From NCBI GenBank assembly GCA_016866215.1, contig VGNE01000022.1, positions 1 to 57,849 of the forward strand: a DNA stretch of 57,849 bases, given 5' to 3'. Under the pieces are notes generated by a model. It had not been told where the DNA came from. It worked only from the letters and a program-made list of their open reading frames with translations, and did no database searches. This document shows positions 14,779-48,738 of the stretch, piece by piece. The stretch comes from Chloroflexota bacterium. GTDB lineage: Bacteria > Chloroflexota > Anaerolineae > Anaerolineales > Villigracilaceae. The stretch's first letter is position 1. The number at the start of each line of letters is the position of its first letter. The position numbers and the translations under genes were made by a program.

Positions 14779-14872
14779 GTACACAAGTAAACAGGTAAAC
14801 AGGGATTGCGTAAACTGCAATCCCTGTTTTCTTGTCTACATGCTTACGTGTCTACCTGTCTACGTTTATACT
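14779..14872. repeat. Octamer-repeat inverted array before pyrC
   Basis: The left arm has octamers ACAAGTAA, ACAGGTAA. The right arm has TTGTCTAC, ATGCTTAC, GTGTCTAC, CTGTCTAC, GTTTATAC at 8-bp period. The arms are approximate reverse complements and enclose the terminator at 14799-14830. The last octamer contains TATACT (14867-14872), placed as a -10 exactly 7 nt before the pyrC ATG. Confidence 0.7.
14799..14830 (+). terminator. Terminator after the permease
   Basis: ACAGGGATTGC (14799-14809) and GCAATCCCTGT (14817-14827) form a perfect 11-bp stem followed by TTTT. Confidence 0.8.
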
Positions 14873-14878
14873 TGCCCC

Positions 14879-15946
14879 ATGCTCAAACTCCCCGGTTTAA
14901 TTGACCCGCACGTCCATTTGCGCGAACCTGGCGCGACGCATAAAGAAGATTTTGATTCAGGCACATCTGCCGCACTTGCCGGTGGATTCACCATCGTACT
15001 TGCAATGCCAAATACCAAACCTCCGATTTTTGATTCGGGTACTCTTGATCTCGCATTAAATGCCGCGAAACAAAAAGCGCGCTGTGACTACGGACAATAC
15101 CTGGGCGCGGGACCCGATAATGCGGATTGGAAATTACACAAGTCGCTGCCATCACGCGCGGCGGGACTTAAAATGTATCTCGATTCGACCTTCGGTGAAC
15201 TGCGCCTTGATGATATGACACTATGGCACCCGCATTTTGAAAATTGGCCGAAAGATATGCCCATCGTGGCACATGCTGAAAGCAGAAGTATGGCAGCGGC
15301 GATTCTATTTGCCTCCATTTACGACCGTTCCCTTCACATCGCGCATGTTTCATTAAAAGAAGAGATCCTGCTGATCAAAGCCGCAAAGGAAAAAGGGATC
15401 AAGGTGACTTGCGAGGTTTGTCCGCATCATTTGTTTATGACCTCTTCCTCTCCCGAGGGGAGAGAGTCGGGTGAGGGAAGAAAAGATGTCCGCCCGCGCT
15501 TGGCCTCCCAAAAAGATGTAGATGCTCTCTGGAACAATCTCGATGTTATTGATTGCTTCGCCACCGACCACGCGCCCCATACAAAAGAAGAAAAGGATTC
15601 AGATAATCCACCGCCCGGCTTTCCGGGCTTGGAAACAGCGCTGCCTCTTTTGCTAACGGCTGTTTCCGAATCCCGACTCACAATTCCCGATTTGATCGCG
15701 AAAATGTATACCAACCCTAAAAAAATCTTCAATCTTCCTGAACAAGCCGAGACCTGGGTCGAAGTGGACGAGAACGCAGCCTACGAGATCAAAGCCCCTG
15801 AGCAATTTACACGCTGCGGCTGGACTCCCTTTGAAGGCTGGAAGGTGAAAGGCAAAGTCTGCAAAGTAGTCTTGCGCGGCAAAACCGCCTTTGAAGACGG
15901 AAAAATCCATGTGGAAGCCGGCTACGGCAGGGATATTCGGGTATAA
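14879..15946 (+). CDS. pyrC: Dihydroorotase
   Basis: PyrC cyclises carbamoyl-aspartate to dihydroorotate in de novo pyrimidine synthesis. The 355-residue protein has the amidohydrolase metal motif DPHVHLREPG (about 8-17), the substrate segment HKEDFDSGT, metal-binding HAES and CEVCPHHLFM, and the catalytic Asp in FATDHAPHTKEEK. The start at 14879 gives the usual N-terminus LPGLIDPHVH. No Shine-Dalgarno precedes it, and a TATACT -10 lies 7 nt upstream, so the mRNA is probably leaderless. Residues SSPEGRESGEGRK after HHLFM come from a palindromic repeat within the gene (15441-15480) and replace the usual loop. Confidence 0.93.
   Translation: MLKLPGLIDPHVHLREPGATHKEDFDSGTSAALAGGFTIVLAMPNTKPPIFDSGTLDLALNAAKQKARCDYGQYLGAGPDNADWKLHKSLPSRAAGLKMYLDSTFGELRLDDMTLWHPHFENWPKDMPIVAHAESRSMAAAILFASIYDRSLHIAHVSLKEEILLIKAAKEKGIKVTCEVCPHHLFMTSSSPEGRESGEGRKDVRPRLASQKDVDALWNNLDVIDCFATDHAPHTKEEKDSDNPPPGFPGLETALPLLLTAVSESRLTIPDLIAKMYTNPKKIFNLPEQAETWVEVDENAAYEIKAPEQFTRCGWTPFEGWKVKGKVCKVVLRGKTAFEDGKIHVEAGYGRDIRV
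15441..15480. repeat. Dispersed palindromic repeat inside pyrC
   Basis: CTCTCCC-GA-GGGGAGAG followed by GTCGGGTGAGGG has the form of a repeat often found between bacterial genes. Here it is read in frame and encodes a Ser/Gly/Glu-rich loop of dihydroorotase. Confidence 0.6.
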
Positions 15947-16034: not shown

Positions 16035-16385
16035 TGTGGATAAGTGGCACTTAACTGTGGAAAACCTCCTCTGCCTGTGGACAATAAGCCTAATTCCCTA
16101 AATAATTGTCTAGCAACTTAAAAAGGCAAACCCCCATATATGGGGGTTTGCCTTTTGTATATACCAAAATATGGACGTCTCCAAAAAAGAAATAACCATT
16201 TGCTGATTTTGTGGATAAGTTGTCCAGAAACTCTCCACAGCAAGGGTCGTGTCTGAAAACAGAATCAGGCTCAGGCCTGGTGGGAAGCGGGGCAAGTCAT
16301 CCCGTCTGTAGTGGAGAATCTGTTTTGTCCACACTATCAACACCCCCTACTAATATTACTAAATCATATTAATATATAGATACTT
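16035..16385. other. Candidate chromosomal replication origin (oriC)
   Basis: Within the 517-bp gap between pyrC and spoVS there are five DnaA boxes fitting TTNTNCACA: TGTGGATAA (16035-16043), TGTGGAAAA (16056-16064), TGTGGACAA (16076-16084), TGTGGATAA (16210-16218), and TTGTCCACA on the plus strand (16325-16333). Near matches lie at 16220-16228 and 16231-16239. After the last box come a C-rich run (16341-16347) and triplets CTA-CTA-ATA-TTA-CTA (16347-16361). An AT-rich stretch follows to about 16400. This box/GC-cluster/DnaA-trio order matches the unwinding region described for B. subtilis-type origins. A 36-bp perfect palindrome lies in the middle. Confidence 0.78.
16121..16156. terminator. 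36-bp perfect palindrome, likely bidirectional terminator
   Basis: AAAAGGCAAACCCCCATA joined directly to its reverse complement gives an 18-bp-arm palindrome with A and T runs at the ends. It may terminate pyrC transcription before the second group of DnaA boxes. Confidence 0.7.
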
Positions 16386-16386
16386 C

Positions 16387-16415
16387 TTGAATCTATTAAG
16401 TGAATCCTGTACAAT
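16387..16415 (+). promoter_or_regulatory. spoVS promoter
   Basis: TTGAAT (16387-16392) and TACAAT (16410-16415) with a 17-bp spacer. It lies at the right edge of the AT-rich part of the candidate origin, so transcription of spoVS could affect origin opening. Confidence 0.65.
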
Positions 16416-16463: not shown

Positions 16464-16736
16464 ATGGATATAATCAAAGTTTCAGCCAACTCCCGTACCT
16501 CTGCAGTTGCCGGGGCTATCGCAGGAGTGATGCGCGAGCACAAACATGCAGAAGTGCAAGCCATCGGAGCCGGCGCAGTGAACCAGGCTGTAAAGGCCCT
16601 CGTGCTTGCCACCAGTTACCTCAAGAATGATGGGATGGATGTGGTCTGTGTCCCTGAGTTCGTGGACGTGGAAATCGAGGATAAGGTTCGCACGGCCATT
16701 AAACTGGTGATCGAACCTCGTAACCCGAATCCGTAA
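16464..16736 (+). CDS. spoVS: Stage V sporulation protein S-like protein
   Basis: This 90-residue protein is nearly a textbook SpoVS. It begins MDIIKVSANSRTSAVAGAIA, then has EVQAIGAGAVNQAVKALVLA and ends VEIEDKVRTAIKLVIEP. SpoVS proteins adopt an Alba-like fold, which suggests nucleic-acid binding, and occur in many non-sporulating bacteria. The start has GGGAGG at good spacing. The gene immediately follows the candidate origin; a chromosome-associated role would fit the position but is inference. A palindromic repeat follows the stop. Confidence 0.93.
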   Translation: MDIIKVSANSRTSAVAGAIAGVMREHKHAEVQAIGAGAVNQAVKALVLATSYLKNDGMDVVCVPEFVDVEIEDKVRTAIKLVIEPRNPNP

Positions 16737-16879: not shown

Positions 16880-19444
16880 ATGCAAAATTGGAAGAGTTTT
16901 CTGCGTGTAATGTTATTCCTAGCCCTGTTGATAGGTATGCTGGCAGGTGTTTCCGCACCTGCGTTTGTGAATGAGTCTGTTAGTGCGGCGCCGATGCAAG
17001 CAACTGCTTTGGATGTAATTATCAATGAAATTGGATGGGGAGGAACTGCGGCGTCCACAGCAGATGAATGGATTGAACTATATAATCCCACAGGGTCAAA
17101 TATTAATATTACGGGCTGGACTCTCATCACTACAGGCGGAACACCTAATATTCTTCTTTCTGGAACTATTCCTGCAAATGGTTATTTTCTTCTTGAACGT
17201 ACAGATGATACAGCAACTTCTGTACCAGCTGATCAATTTTTTACAGGTGCAATTGCTAACAATCCAGCAGGTGATGGTTTTACCTTAAGTGACGAGTTAA
17301 ACAACATAATTGATACTGCAAATATCAATGGTGGGTCATGGCCCGGTGGAAGTGCAGGATCAACTTTTTCAACCATGGAAAGAATAAGTATTGGTGTTGA
17401 TGCAGATTCCAATTGGGGTTCCAATAATGGGGTAACAAGAAATGGTACCGATGTTGGCGGTAATTCGATTAATGGTACACCCAAACAACAAAACTCAATC
17501 TATGCTCTTCCAACACCAACTCCAACAAATACAAACACGCCAACAAACACATCCACTCCCACAAACACCCTTACCCCTTCGCTTACCCCGATCTTCTCCC
17601 TCACTCCTTCTCTCACCCCCTTCCCCGGCGAAGTCATCCTCAGCGAAATTGCCTGGTCTGGAACACAAGCCACTTCCAATGATGAATGGATAGAACTTTA
17701 CAATACCCGTTCCACGCCAATTGATCTAACAGGCTGGCGTTTGGTCAGCAACAGCGGCGGTGTGGATATTGTCTTGAGCGGCACGATTTCCGGTAACGGC
17801 TATTTCCTGCTTGAACGCGCTCGTGAAAATACGGTAAATGATGTCAGTGCAAATCAAATCTATACAGGGTCGCTTTCAGATGCAGGCGATATATTAAGTT
17901 TAAGCAAGCCCAATGGAACAGTCGTGGATACTGCCAACAGCGATGGAGGTTCATGGCCTGCTGGAAGCGCTTCCCCCAATTTCTACAGCATGGAAAGAGT
18001 GTTAAGTGGTGGTGTCGCCGCGCCGGATAATTCCTACGGCTGGATAACCAATAATCAGCCAGCCACCTGGACAACGCATGATGCGGCAAATAATCTTATT
18101 CATGGAACACCCGGAAATCCCAATTGGGCATTTTCAGTAACGCCTACTTTTACGCCAACGATTACATTATCACCTACACTAACCCTCACCCCCACCCTTA
18201 CATTGACTCTCACACCCAGCATCACCCCCACACCAGCGGGATTAAGATCCGTGATCATCAATGAGGTGGCCTGGGCAGGCACAACCTCCGGGCTTAGTGA
18301 CGATGAATGGATCGAGTTATACAATCCTGGAAGCGCAGCCATAAGTATCATAGGCTGGAACCTAAAAGCCGCCGATGGCGCGCCAGACATCGTCCTGAGC
18401 GGATACATCCCTGCCGGCGGATATTTCCTGCTCGAACGCGGCGCCAACCTCTCGGATGACACCACCGTGTCCGACATCCCTGCAGATCAAATATACACTG
18501 GTAACGCGCTGTCCAATAGCGGAGAAGAGCTCACTCTGTATGACGTCTCCAACAAAATCATAGATACTGCTAATGGCAATGGCGGTAGCTGGCCCGCGGG
18601 AAGTTCATCCACTTACGGCACGATGGAAAGAATTTCAGGAACCGCCGACAGCGACAGCGCATGGATCACAAACACAGGCGTAAAGAAAAACGGAAAGAAT
18701 GCAAACGGCGGCGATATTTTAGGGACGCCAAAGAACAGCAATAATGTAGGTCCCACTCCCACACCCTCAAAGACAGCCACACCCGTAAGCACCTCAACCT
18801 CCGCAGCGTTCGAGATTGACCCCCGTCCCATCATCAACGAAATCCTCCCGCGCCCGGGCTTTGATTGGAACCAGGACGGCAAGGTGGATGTCTTCGACGA
18901 ATTCATCGAGATCAAAAATCTCAGCCCCATCGATATTAATTTAAGTGGCTGGATACTGGATGACGAAGCAGACACAGGCTCAAGCCCGTTCACATTGCCG
19001 GATGTCACCTTGAAACCCAGGCAACGCATTGTCTTCTACGGATCCCAAACCAACCTGTTGCTCAGTGACGGCGGCGATAGCGTGCGTCTCATCAACCCCA
19101 AAGGGAAAATATACGACAAATATACCTATCCCATCGCAAAGTGGGAGGATGAATCCATTTGCCGCCTGCCCGACGGGAATGTCTTTGGCGCATGGTTCGC
19201 AGATTGCACTCCCACACCAAACCTGACCAATACGCGCGAAGGAAATGTCCCAGCCATGCCGGACGTCAATTATGAATCTCCCGTCTGCGATTTACCCGAT
19301 ACCATCCCCGTCGATTTCTTCCTCGCCGAATGTCACGGTTACGGAGCGAATGTCTGGAATCCGTATTATTGGGACCAAAACGGCTGGCAGGGCGCGCTAA
19401 CCATTCCACAAAAAACGAGCAAATGGGAATCTTTTGTTGAATAA
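16880..19444 (+). CDS. Secreted protein with four lamin-tail domains
   Basis: The 854-residue product has an N-terminal signal peptide (hydrophobic core VMLFLALLIGMLAGVSA). Three similar lamin-tail (LTD) domains follow at about 45-200, 250-410 and 455-620. Each has a NEI/SEIAW entry, DEWIELYN, an LSGTI.NGYFLLER strand and TAN.(D/N)GGSWPAGS. Thr/Pro-rich linkers (repeated TPTNT, TPTLT) separate them. A fourth, more divergent LTD-like domain (about 645-760) includes NQDGKVDVFDEFIEIKN. The last 95 residues are unassigned. It has no LPxTG or membrane anchor at the end. Such proteins are taken to be cell-surface or matrix components. No clear Shine-Dalgarno precedes the ATG. Confidence 0.8.
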   Translation: MQNWKSFLRVMLFLALLIGMLAGVSAPAFVNESVSAAPMQATALDVIINEIGWGGTAASTADEWIELYNPTGSNINITGWTLITTGGTPNILLSGTIPANGYFLLERTDDTATSVPADQFFTGAIANNPAGDGFTLSDELNNIIDTANINGGSWPGGSAGSTFSTMERISIGVDADSNWGSNNGVTRNGTDVGGNSINGTPKQQNSIYALPTPTPTNTNTPTNTSTPTNTLTPSLTPIFSLTPSLTPFPGEVILSEIAWSGTQATSNDEWIELYNTRSTPIDLTGWRLVSNSGGVDIVLSGTISGNGYFLLERARENTVNDVSANQIYTGSLSDAGDILSLSKPNGTVVDTANSDGGSWPAGSASPNFYSMERVLSGGVAAPDNSYGWITNNQPATWTTHDAANNLIHGTPGNPNWAFSVTPTFTPTITLSPTLTLTPTLTLTLTPSITPTPAGLRSVIINEVAWAGTTSGLSDDEWIELYNPGSAAISIIGWNLKAADGAPDIVLSGYIPAGGYFLLERGANLSDDTTVSDIPADQIYTGNALSNSGEELTLYDVSNKIIDTANGNGGSWPAGSSSTYGTMERISGTADSDSAWITNTGVKKNGKNANGGDILGTPKNSNNVGPTPTPSKTATPVSTSTSAAFEIDPRPIINEILPRPGFDWNQDGKVDVFDEFIEIKNLSPIDINLSGWILDDEADTGSSPFTLPDVTLKPRQRIVFYGSQTNLLLSDGGDSVRLINPKGKIYDKYTYPIAKWEDESICRLPDGNVFGAWFADCTPTPNLTNTREGNVPAMPDVNYESPVCDLPDTIPVDFFLAECHGYGANVWNPYYWDQNGWQGALTIPQKTSKWESFVE

Positions 19445-20457: not shown

Positions 20458-21099
20458 ATGACCGATATATTACGTATCGCGAATCACGAATTATCCTCCC
20501 TCGCCGATGAACTGCTCGCTGCAGGCTGTATCAAATTCGGTGACTTCACCCTCAAGTCTGGTTTCAAATCCCCCATCTACATTGATCTGCGCCGTATTAT
20601 CTCATTTCCAAAATTACTTGAACAAATCGCGGCGGCATATTTGCCTATCATCCGTCCTCTTTCCTTCGACCGTCTCGCTGGATTGCCTTACGCCGCCATT
20701 CCCATCGCCACCGCCATCAGCCTGGCGGGAAACTATCCGATGATCTATCCGCGCAAGGAAGTAAAAGACTATGGAACGAAAGCAGAGATCGAAGGCGAAT
20801 TCCACGCCGGTGAAACGGCTCTGGTTATTGACGATCTCGCCACCACTGGTGGAAGCAAATTCGAAGCCATTGAAAAATTGACAGGCGCAGGGCTGATCGT
20901 GAAAGATGTTGTTGTGTTGGTGGATCGTCAATCTGGCGCAAAGGAATCCCTCGAACAGGCGGGATACTCCTTGTACTCGGTTTTCACCATCAATCAGCTG
21001 CTGGATCATTGGGAAGAGACAGGGAGAGTGTCCAAGGATAAGATCGAAGTCACGAGAGCGTTTCTGAAGCGCTCAAATGTTTTAACGCCAGGAGATTGA
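20458..21099 (+). CDS. pyrE: Orotate phosphoribosyltransferase
   Basis: PyrE joins orotate and PRPP to give OMP, which PyrF uses. The 213-residue protein has FTLKSGFKSPIYIDLR (about 29-44) near the orotate site, the flexible loop RKEVKDYGTKAEIEG (about 99-113) with catalytic Lys, and the PRPP signature ALVIDDLATTGGSK (about 121-134). AAAGGA lies before the ATG. The 3' end carries AGGAG, which would have served a downstream gene now reduced to a fragment (21107-21184). Confidence 0.94.
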   Translation: MTDILRIANHELSSLADELLAAGCIKFGDFTLKSGFKSPIYIDLRRIISFPKLLEQIAAAYLPIIRPLSFDRLAGLPYAAIPIATAISLAGNYPMIYPRKEVKDYGTKAEIEGEFHAGETALVIDDLATTGGSKFEAIEKLTGAGLIVKDVVVLVDRQSGAKESLEQAGYSLYSVFTINQLLDHWEETGRVSKDKIEVTRAFLKRSNVLTPGD

Positions 21100-47554: not shown

Positions 47555-47604
47555 TTAATGATATACTTTTGAAAATTAATCAAAAGAAACCGAGGGCGAA
47601 CACC

Positions 47605-48738
47605 ATGAAAGTTACGGTCCTTCAAGAAAACCTGGCACGCGGTTTGGGCATTGTCTCACGCGCGGTGTCTCCGCGCAGTACGCTACCTGTGCTATCCAAT
47701 ATTTTAATTGCAACGGATGAAGGCCGCTTGCGGCTCTCTGCTACCAACCTTGAATTGGGCATAACTTGTTGGATCACGGCGCGTATAGACGAAGATGGTT
47801 CAACCACCGTGCCTGCGCGCACCTTTTCTGATTTGGTGAACGCCATGCCGACCGACCAGGTGCATCTGACCCTCGATGTGAAAACACAAAGCCTGCATGT
47901 GAAGGGCGGCTCTTCGAACAATGATATCAAGTGCATTGACGCGCAGGAATTCCCGCCATTGCCCACACCTGAAATGGAAGACGCGGTGCAATTAAATGTG
48001 GCTGATTTCAAAGAGATGATCCACCAGGTTGCTTTTGCGGCTTCAACCGATGAAGCCCGCCCGGTCTTGATGGGTGTGTTGATGAATGTTGAAAAAGACA
48101 AGGTCACAATGGCGGCGGCGGATGGTTTCCGCCTTTCGGTGCGCAAGGCAGAACTTCCACAAAGTGTTACACAACCCATCAATGTCATCATCCCTGCGCG
48201 CGCTTTGAATGAACTCGCGCGGGTTGCATCCGATGGCGAAGAACCGCTTTACATGATCGTGCCAAAAAATCGCGGACAGGTTCTGTTCCGCGTGAAGGAT
48301 GTAGAAGTGGTTTCGCAATTGATCGAGGGCACTTTCCCCGATTATCATCAAATCATTCCGCGCAATTACAAATCGCGCACGCTGGTTTCCACCGCCTCGC
48401 TTCTCAAAGCCTGCAAGCAAGCTGAGATCTTTGCGCGTGAAGGTTCAAACGTGGCACGTTTTGACATCAAACAAGCCAACGGCGAGATGCAGCCTAGTGA
48501 AGTTGAGATCTCTGCGGTCTCCGAAGAGACAGGTAAGAACGAAACCATCGTCGAAGCCACAGTGGATGGTGGCAGTGTGCTGATCGCGTTCAACGTCAAA
48601 TTTTTACGCGAGGCGCTGGAAGTCATCAAGACCCCGAACGTCGCGCTTGAAACCTCCGCGGCGAATGCTCCCGGTGTTGTCCGTCCGGTGGGCGATGATA
48701 ACTTCCTGCACGTCATCATGCCGATGCATTTGGGCTGA
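47605..48738 (+). CDS. dnaN: DNA polymerase III beta subunit (sliding clamp)
   Basis: The 377-residue clamp has the usual three-domain length. It starts MKVTVLQENLARGLGIVSRA and contains LPVLSNILI, the domain-2 segment VAFAASTDEARPVLMGVLM, and TFPDYHQIIPR. It ends DDNFLHVIMPMHL, close to the canonical YVVMPMRL. It tethers polymerase III to DNA. The ATG at 47605, with GAGGG upstream, is preferred over a longer N-terminus. dnaA, recF and gyrB are not adjacent, so the classical dnaA-dnaN arrangement is broken here. The candidate oriC lies 31 kb to the left. Confidence 0.95.
   Translation: MKVTVLQENLARGLGIVSRAVSPRSTLPVLSNILIATDEGRLRLSATNLELGITCWITARIDEDGSTTVPARTFSDLVNAMPTDQVHLTLDVKTQSLHVKGGSSNNDIKCIDAQEFPPLPTPEMEDAVQLNVADFKEMIHQVAFAASTDEARPVLMGVLMNVEKDKVTMAAADGFRLSVRKAELPQSVTQPINVIIPARALNELARVASDGEEPLYMIVPKNRGQVLFRVKDVEVVSQLIEGTFPDYHQIIPRNYKSRTLVSTASLLKACKQAEIFAREGSNVARFDIKQANGEMQPSEVEISAVSEETGKNETIVEATVDGGSVLIAFNVKFLREALEVIKTPNVALETSAANAPGVVRPVGDDNFLHVIMPMHLG

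Follow-up and report, generated by a model that had tools for sequence, protein, structure and literature searches.

The closest described counterpart of the element reported here is the basal unwinding system (BUS) of Bacillus subtilis. The two share, in the same order and with the same spacing, tandem DnaA boxes, a distance of 13 nt from the first box to the first DnaA-trio, five NAN trios and AT-rich DNA. Clusters of DnaA boxes are also known under the names datA and DARS. In the part of PMC8287927 available to us, a BUS is defined by a DnaA box with at most two mismatches, often with a second one in tandem, and by at least three NAN trios, which lie within 16 bp of the box with a commonest spacer of 13 bp. 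The candidate Anaerolineales element differs from the B. subtilis BUS in its location between pyrC and spoVS, away from dnaA, and in carrying an NrdR-like pair between its DnaA boxes.

How bacteria couple the initiation of replication to the supply of dNTPs is, to our knowledge, still open. In Caulobacter, high dNTP levels delay S phase (excerpt of PMC12186491). NrdR is treated solely through ribonucleotide reductase (RNR) and dNTP supply in the available portions of PMC11853086 and PMC12075136. Its E. coli pattern consists of 16-bp boxes with a 15-bp spacer (excerpt of PMC12176259). According to the accessible text of PMC12051234, NrdR requires a pair of boxes spaced by 14–17 or 24–27 bp, and a lone box is not bound; a single NrdR box described at topA (excerpt of PMC4409342) is questioned there. 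Genes for NrdR occur near replication genes such as dnaA (excerpt of PMC4898720). The pair in the Anaerolineales candidate origin shares with the NrdR boxes of RNR promoters the paired 16-bp palindromes and a spacer, here 14 or 15 bp, within the 14–17 bp given in the same text of PMC12051234. It differs from them in that it sits in an origin and one of its boxes is weak, and the copy at dnaA is single. Among the titles and abstract openings listed by searches of the open-licence literature, no description of NrdR sites in an origin was found, and such searches yielded nothing on Anaerolineae origins or on a link between spoVS and origins.

Architecture of the candidate origin

The DNA under study (the window) is contig C22, 57,849 nt long, of the draft genome G000, which comprises 3.74 Mb in 128 contigs. 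The candidate oriC lies between a pyrC-like amidohydrolase gene (14840–15946, plus strand; an open reading frame with PF01979, the name pyrC coming from an earlier sequence-only reading of this DNA) and spoVS (16464–16736, plus strand; SpoVS family, PF04232). The nearest named matches of spoVS are from Anaerolineales and other Chloroflexi metagenome assemblies. A sigma-70-like promoter, TTGAAT-17-TACAAT, is found by a consensus scan at 16387–16415 on the plus strand and is probably that of spoVS; three such promoters are found in the region against 1.3 expected, and hexamers resembling those of the spoVS promoter are also present in relatives. Downstream of spoVS, an 854-aa protein (16880–19444) shows four lamin tail domain matches. 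The gene dnaN for the DNA polymerase III beta clamp is found at 47569–48738 (plus strand; PF00712, PF02767, PF02768). In the one-contig relative G020, dnaN lies about 18 kb and dnaA about 930 kb from the spoVS site.

Three phased DnaA boxes on the minus strand open the cluster: TTATCCACA at 16035–16043, TTTTCCACA at 16056–16064, 21 bp from the first, and TTGTCCACA at 16076–16084, 20 bp from the second. The first two are present in 21/21 spoVS loci of the same genus. The third is kept in 18/21, and the remaining three loci have a variant that breaks the pattern. A fourth box, again TTATCCACA, is found at 16210–16218 on the minus strand (17/21 loci), and the fifth, TTGTCCACA with one mismatch, at 16325–16333 on the plus strand, where it forms the upstream box of the BUS. 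Two of the five are thus exact copies of TTATCCACA. The whole window holds 14 matches to TTNTNCACA against 8.2 expected, a number reached by 4 of 100 shuffles, and five of the 14 fall within the 299 bp of the cluster. At the sampled background rate (276 boxes in 1.997 Mb from four relatives and 17 kb of G000, the origins' own boxes counted), the Poisson chance of at least five boxes per 299 bp is about 1e-9, and chance clustering is rejected on this ground.

In the BUS, a degenerate DnaA box with two mismatches, CTATCAACA, abuts the fifth box at 16334–16342 on the plus strand; in most relatives this second tandem box reads TATCCACA. It is followed on the same strand by the GC spacer CCCC at 16343–16346, a gap of 4 in 21/21 same-genus loci, and by five DnaA-trios, CTA CTA ATA TTA CTA, at 16347–16361 (a run of 5 by the rule), for which the bound strand reads 3'-GAT GAT TAT AAT GAT-5'. 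An AT-rich candidate unwinding region, read from the sequence, extends over 16362–16386. The site therefore shows tandem boxes with one and two mismatches and five trios starting 13 nt from the first box. On its own, the published trio rule is loose and satisfied fairly often: at least three trios are found near 49 of 298 boxes in sampled DNA, and the fourth oriC box also carries a nearby run of 4 trios.

The sequence-only reading had anticipated much of this anatomy. Its five TTNTNCACA boxes in about 300 bp, four on one strand and the last on the other, are all present. Its order of DnaA box, GC cluster, DnaA-trio and AT-rich DNA is borne out as a complete BUS, kept in 21/21 same-genus spoVS loci. 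Two details had to be revised. The C-rich run and triplets that it placed after the last box are there, but the extra Cs amount to the 4-base spacer; the last box is abutted by the degenerate one, and the BUS is therefore of the tandem-box form. The site was also said to be adjacent to neither dnaA nor dnaN. This is correct, with dnaA on another contig of G000 and dnaN 31 kb off, though dnaN is still in the neighbourhood, within the same window.

Conservation and distribution of the BUS

For the same-genus comparison, 25 genomes were searched for spoVS; four gave no match and 21 loci were used, which are relatives and not independent samples. We defined a strict BUS rule of our own, with tandem boxes, a gap of 1–6, CTA as the first trio and at least three trios. 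It matches 21/21 same-genus spoVS loci, with a box offset of 9 in 20/21 and a spacer of 4 in 21/21. None of 8 spoVS loci from other families matches it, and these 8 have no DnaA box within 900 bp upstream. Among the named spoVS loci with enough upstream DNA, 29/76 match (4 of 80 were left out for having fewer than 349 bases upstream). In a control of 7128 windows of 600 bp, three strict matches are found, and all three are the origins contained in it; no further match is present in 1.98 Mb of relatives beyond the origins.

Over 301 genomes of the order, the strict pattern gives 93 matches in 92 genomes, 91 of which have exactly one, against 18 for the reversed control pattern (controls counted by eye). 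No match is found in 209 of the 301 genomes. G000 is among these because its second box reads TATCAACA, and the uniqueness of the BUS in G000 therefore rests on its relatives.

The neighbours of the BUS change across the order. Among 30 BUS loci, spoVS is found within the locus in 10, all belonging to one sister family (10 of its 14), and the other 20 loci, which span at most about 1.5 kb on either side, lack spoVS. In one locus (L265) the BUS adjoins dnaA, and other loci of the order have different neighbour genes. As the BUS moves among neighbour genes, it belongs with the origin rather than with spoVS. We reject the idea that a promoter element of pyrC or spoVS is the sole cause of the conservation, since the BUS and the palindrome described below also occur without spoVS nearby.

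Strand skew and a second DnaA-box cluster

GC skew was sampled in G020 as 60 stretches of 20 kb. Its sign changes over a wide zone in which the site, at 0.556 Mb, lies; the best fit is at 0.69–0.70 Mb, about 0.14 Mb away. Between 2.46 Mb and 0.31 Mb, passing through 0, 19/21 stretches are negative. Between 0.82 and 2.40 Mb, 15/17 are positive, and the two negative stretches in this arm lie around dnaA. In the intermediate zone, the mean is -0.007 left of the site (6/9 negative) and +0.010 from the site on (8/13 positive). In the orientation of the site, the skew is negative in 5/5 bins beyond -150 kb on the left and positive in 6/6 bins beyond +80 kb on the right; nearer the site it is weak, and both signs occur. 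Among other relatives, the skew of G017 fits this picture close to the site, that of G016 is irregular to either side, and that of G008 is positive immediately to the left of the site. The cumulative skew of the window itself has its minimum at 20722.

Fits of the G020 skew give an R2 of 0.386 at the site, a value reached by 0/300 shuffles, compared with 0.395 near 0.70 Mb, 0.371 at 0.35 Mb, 0.294 at a second box cluster and 0.027 at dnaA. With GC minus AT skew, the fit is 0.416 at the site and clearly better, 0.480, at 0.70 Mb. The bootstrap 5–95% range for the origin is 0.34–0.84 Mb with GC minus AT and 0.34–3.88 Mb with GC alone. The skew thus favours this region and tells against dnaA without pinning the exact site; the switch zone is broad and the bootstrap ranges are wide. 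No DnaA-box cluster is found near dnaA in G000 or G020, and with the poor skew fit there, an origin beside dnaA is rejected.

The second cluster has its DnaA boxes in one direction and is found in G000 at C57:14104–14298 (L371), at the 3' end of an rmlD-like gene and upstream of a neuB-like gene, both named from reading translations. A cluster of the same type is present in G020 (L103, C1:792641–792854). In the G000 cluster, seven boxes match TTATCCACA with at most one mismatch and four of these match it perfectly, compared with five and two at oriC; the core pattern of the cluster is present in 43/57 same-genus genomes. Beside its boxes no run of three trios is found in G000, G020 and G016; in G008 there is one run of 3, beside a TTATCAACA. 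The cluster resembles those of the datA and DARS type in grouping DnaA boxes, conserved among relatives, with no unwinding element; it differs from them in lying in and after an rmlD-like gene. It is possibly a DnaA reservoir.

NrdR-like boxes at the candidate origin, dnaA and nrdR

An NrdR-like palindrome, CCCCCATATATGGGGG, is found at 16131–16146. It is the window's best match (score 21.3) to a matrix made from 60 boxes of 30 nrdR promoters (30 loci of 38), with no oriC sequences included. In these 30 promoters, two boxes lie 31 bp apart, in keeping with the NrdR pattern of other bacteria, and their second boxes score 8.8 to 21.8. When 1.98 Mb is ranked with the matrix, the oriC box of G020 takes second place and that of G008 third; G020 also supplies the top hit, its nrdR promoter, and the fifth, its dnaA box. 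A score of at least 9 near the BUS is found in 38/39 spoVS-linked loci and 21/29 other loci of the order, against 74/2178 background windows; these counts omit L261, which has 65 bases before its BUS, and named loci with no loose BUS match or fewer than 300 bases before it. Upstream of dnaA (700 bp), 30/30 loci, taken from 53 genomes with a dnaA match, reach at least 15, the lowest value being 15.2, compared with 5/1162 upstream regions of 400 bp before ORFs of at least 200 aa.

Palindromes within two mismatches of CCCATATATGGG occur at 3.57/kb in the 600 bp upstream of spoVS (21 same-genus loci) and at 0.025/kb in 1.98 Mb of background. The exact 12-mer has only two copies in G000, one at oriC and one upstream of dnaA, and the same holds for G015 and G022. 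G008 has three (oriC, dnaA and one other). G017 has two (dnaA and one other), its oriC copies having one mismatch, and G020 has at least 12, many of them paired, its dnaA copy having one mismatch. One-mismatch copies are found upstream of nrdR in G000, G015, G017 and G022. In G020, palindrome pairs, exact or with one mismatch and 112–145 bp apart, are present at six places on C1 (near 1429725, 2057897, 2139410, 2296998, 2593886 and 3090245) and perhaps represent a dispersed repeat element.

A weaker partner box, with the core CAAAATATGG (8/10 matches), is found at 16162–16177, its centre 31 bp from that of the main box and the spacer being 15 bp. Its full-matrix score is only 3.2 and is negative in most relatives. 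A partner core of at least 7/10 at a permitted phase is present in 19/21 same-genus loci, compared with 107/3000 random anchors (3.6%). The offset profile peaks at 30 bp (7.6/10 against a mean of 2.6), and the best partner is 30 bp away (14-bp spacer) in 20/21 loci and 31 bp away in G000. At a permitted phase, a partner is found in 30/30 nrdR promoters and in 0/30 dnaA upstream regions. With 19/21 at oriC and 0/30 at dnaA, oriC therefore conforms to the two-box rule, with a weak second box, and dnaA does not. Binding of NrdR at dnaA is doubtful because the copy there is single, and dnaA is rejected as a canonical NrdR target.

The NrdR protein of G000 has a zinc ribbon and an ATP cone (PF22811, PF03477), and its gene is found in 38/41 same-genus genomes searched. 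The gene after nrdR encodes ribonucleotide reductase; in G000 (L289, C7:52002–54374) this gene carries an intein-like insert (LAGLIDADG_3, Intein_splicing). Most upstream regions of dnaA (L331–L360) and nrdR (L301–L330) contain a half-palindrome with GTTCT, e.g. GAAACGCCTGTTCT and AACATTTGTTCT, which we take to resemble the Bacillus-type LexA box, hinting at a possible SOS control of dnaA and nrdR. Further ORFs, mostly of about 500–750 aa, contain a stretch 41–63% identical to the N-terminal part of DnaA (e.g. G041:C1:44806–45126 and G020:C1:176395–176703), and the genus possibly holds extra DnaA-domain proteins.

Discussion

The intergenic region between pyrC and spoVS is, in our estimate with a probability of about 0.85, the chromosomal oriC of this Anaerolineales bacterium. 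Its anatomy is that of an origin, it is conserved and nearly unique per genome, and the skew is compatible with an origin in this zone. We infer that DnaA binds and opens the DNA here and that the forks start at the site. DnaA would bind the four minus-strand boxes, three of them phased, as well as the tandem box at 16325–16342. From the tandem box it would load onto the trios at 16347–16361 and open the AT-rich DNA beside the spoVS promoter, the opened stretch being 16347–16386. The proposal of an origin made by the sequence-only reading thus gains support from the BUS kept in 21/21 loci, from the single match in 91 of 92 genomes and from the skew switch zone that includes the site. It had named a lack of conservation in close relatives as evidence that would speak against it; the tandem box, the spacer and the trios are instead kept in 21/21 same-genus spoVS loci. 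It had also named a skew minimum elsewhere; in G020 the sign change spans a broad zone around the site, its best fit lying about 0.14 Mb off. A denser box cluster elsewhere had been named likewise. Taken literally, the C57 cluster is one, though it is without a trio run in G000. The suggestion that the location could be specific to this lineage is roughly right: it holds in the genus and in 10/14 BUS loci of the sister family, and other families have the BUS beside other genes, once beside dnaA.

Could the C57-type cluster be the true origin, with the spoVS region as a minor DnaA-binding site? It has more DnaA boxes than the spoVS site, its core pattern is kept in 43/57 same-genus genomes and its G020 copy also falls within the broad skew zone. 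Yet the trio run is missing in G000, G020 and G016, with the single run of 3 in G008, the cluster extends into coding sequence, and its distance to the spoVS site varies (about -237 kb, -400 kb and +55 kb in the orientation of the site). Its skew fit is 0.294 compared with 0.386 at the spoVS site. We reject it as the origin for want of an unwinding element in G000, G020 and G016 and keep it as an improbable rival. Still less probable is that the boxes form a DnaA-controlled spoVS promoter and no origin. Such a promoter would need neither trios nor spacer, and it would leave unexplained the 20/30 BUS loci of the order without spoVS, the element beside dnaA in L265 and the 8 spoVS loci of other families without a box within 900 bp upstream, even though a sigma-70-like promoter and spoVS lie directly downstream and the arrangement follows spoVS in the genus and in 10/14 BUS loci of the sister family.

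What is new here, beyond the origin itself, is a strong NrdR-like box with a weaker partner within the candidate origin. We consider it an even chance that the Anaerolineales NrdR binds oriC via this tandem box among the DnaA boxes and that dATP gates initiation, with the site travelling with the origin. NrdR loaded with dATP would then repress initiation at oriC, the direction being a guess; alternatively, its role could be architectural and helping. The effect may be reinforced by the lone NrdR-like box in front of dnaA. It is possible, if somewhat doubtful, that the palindrome is instead a pyrC terminator or hairpin, or the site of another regulator, and that the origin is not contacted by NrdR at all. 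The partner box has a low matrix score, NrdR is deduced only from the match to nrdR promoters, and the stem runs 12 pairs past the core in G000 and 11 and 15 in two relatives. In 18/21 loci, however, the extension is at most 7 pairs while the core letters stay, and a terminator scan made no call (a stem that takes in the T run could escape its rule); a conserved terminator hairpin is rejected on these grounds. Against this alternative as a whole also stand the same core upstream of dnaA (30/30 loci) and nrdR, its presence beside BUS elements without spoVS nearby and the partner phase of 30 or 31 bp.

The assignment of the pyrC–spoVS region, at the probability given above, locates where a large uncultured group starts replication, at a distance from dnaA. 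The BUS motif is sharp enough for origin finding in fragmented genomes. If NrdR indeed binds oriC, it would connect the DNA precursor pool directly, at the molecular level, with replication initiation.
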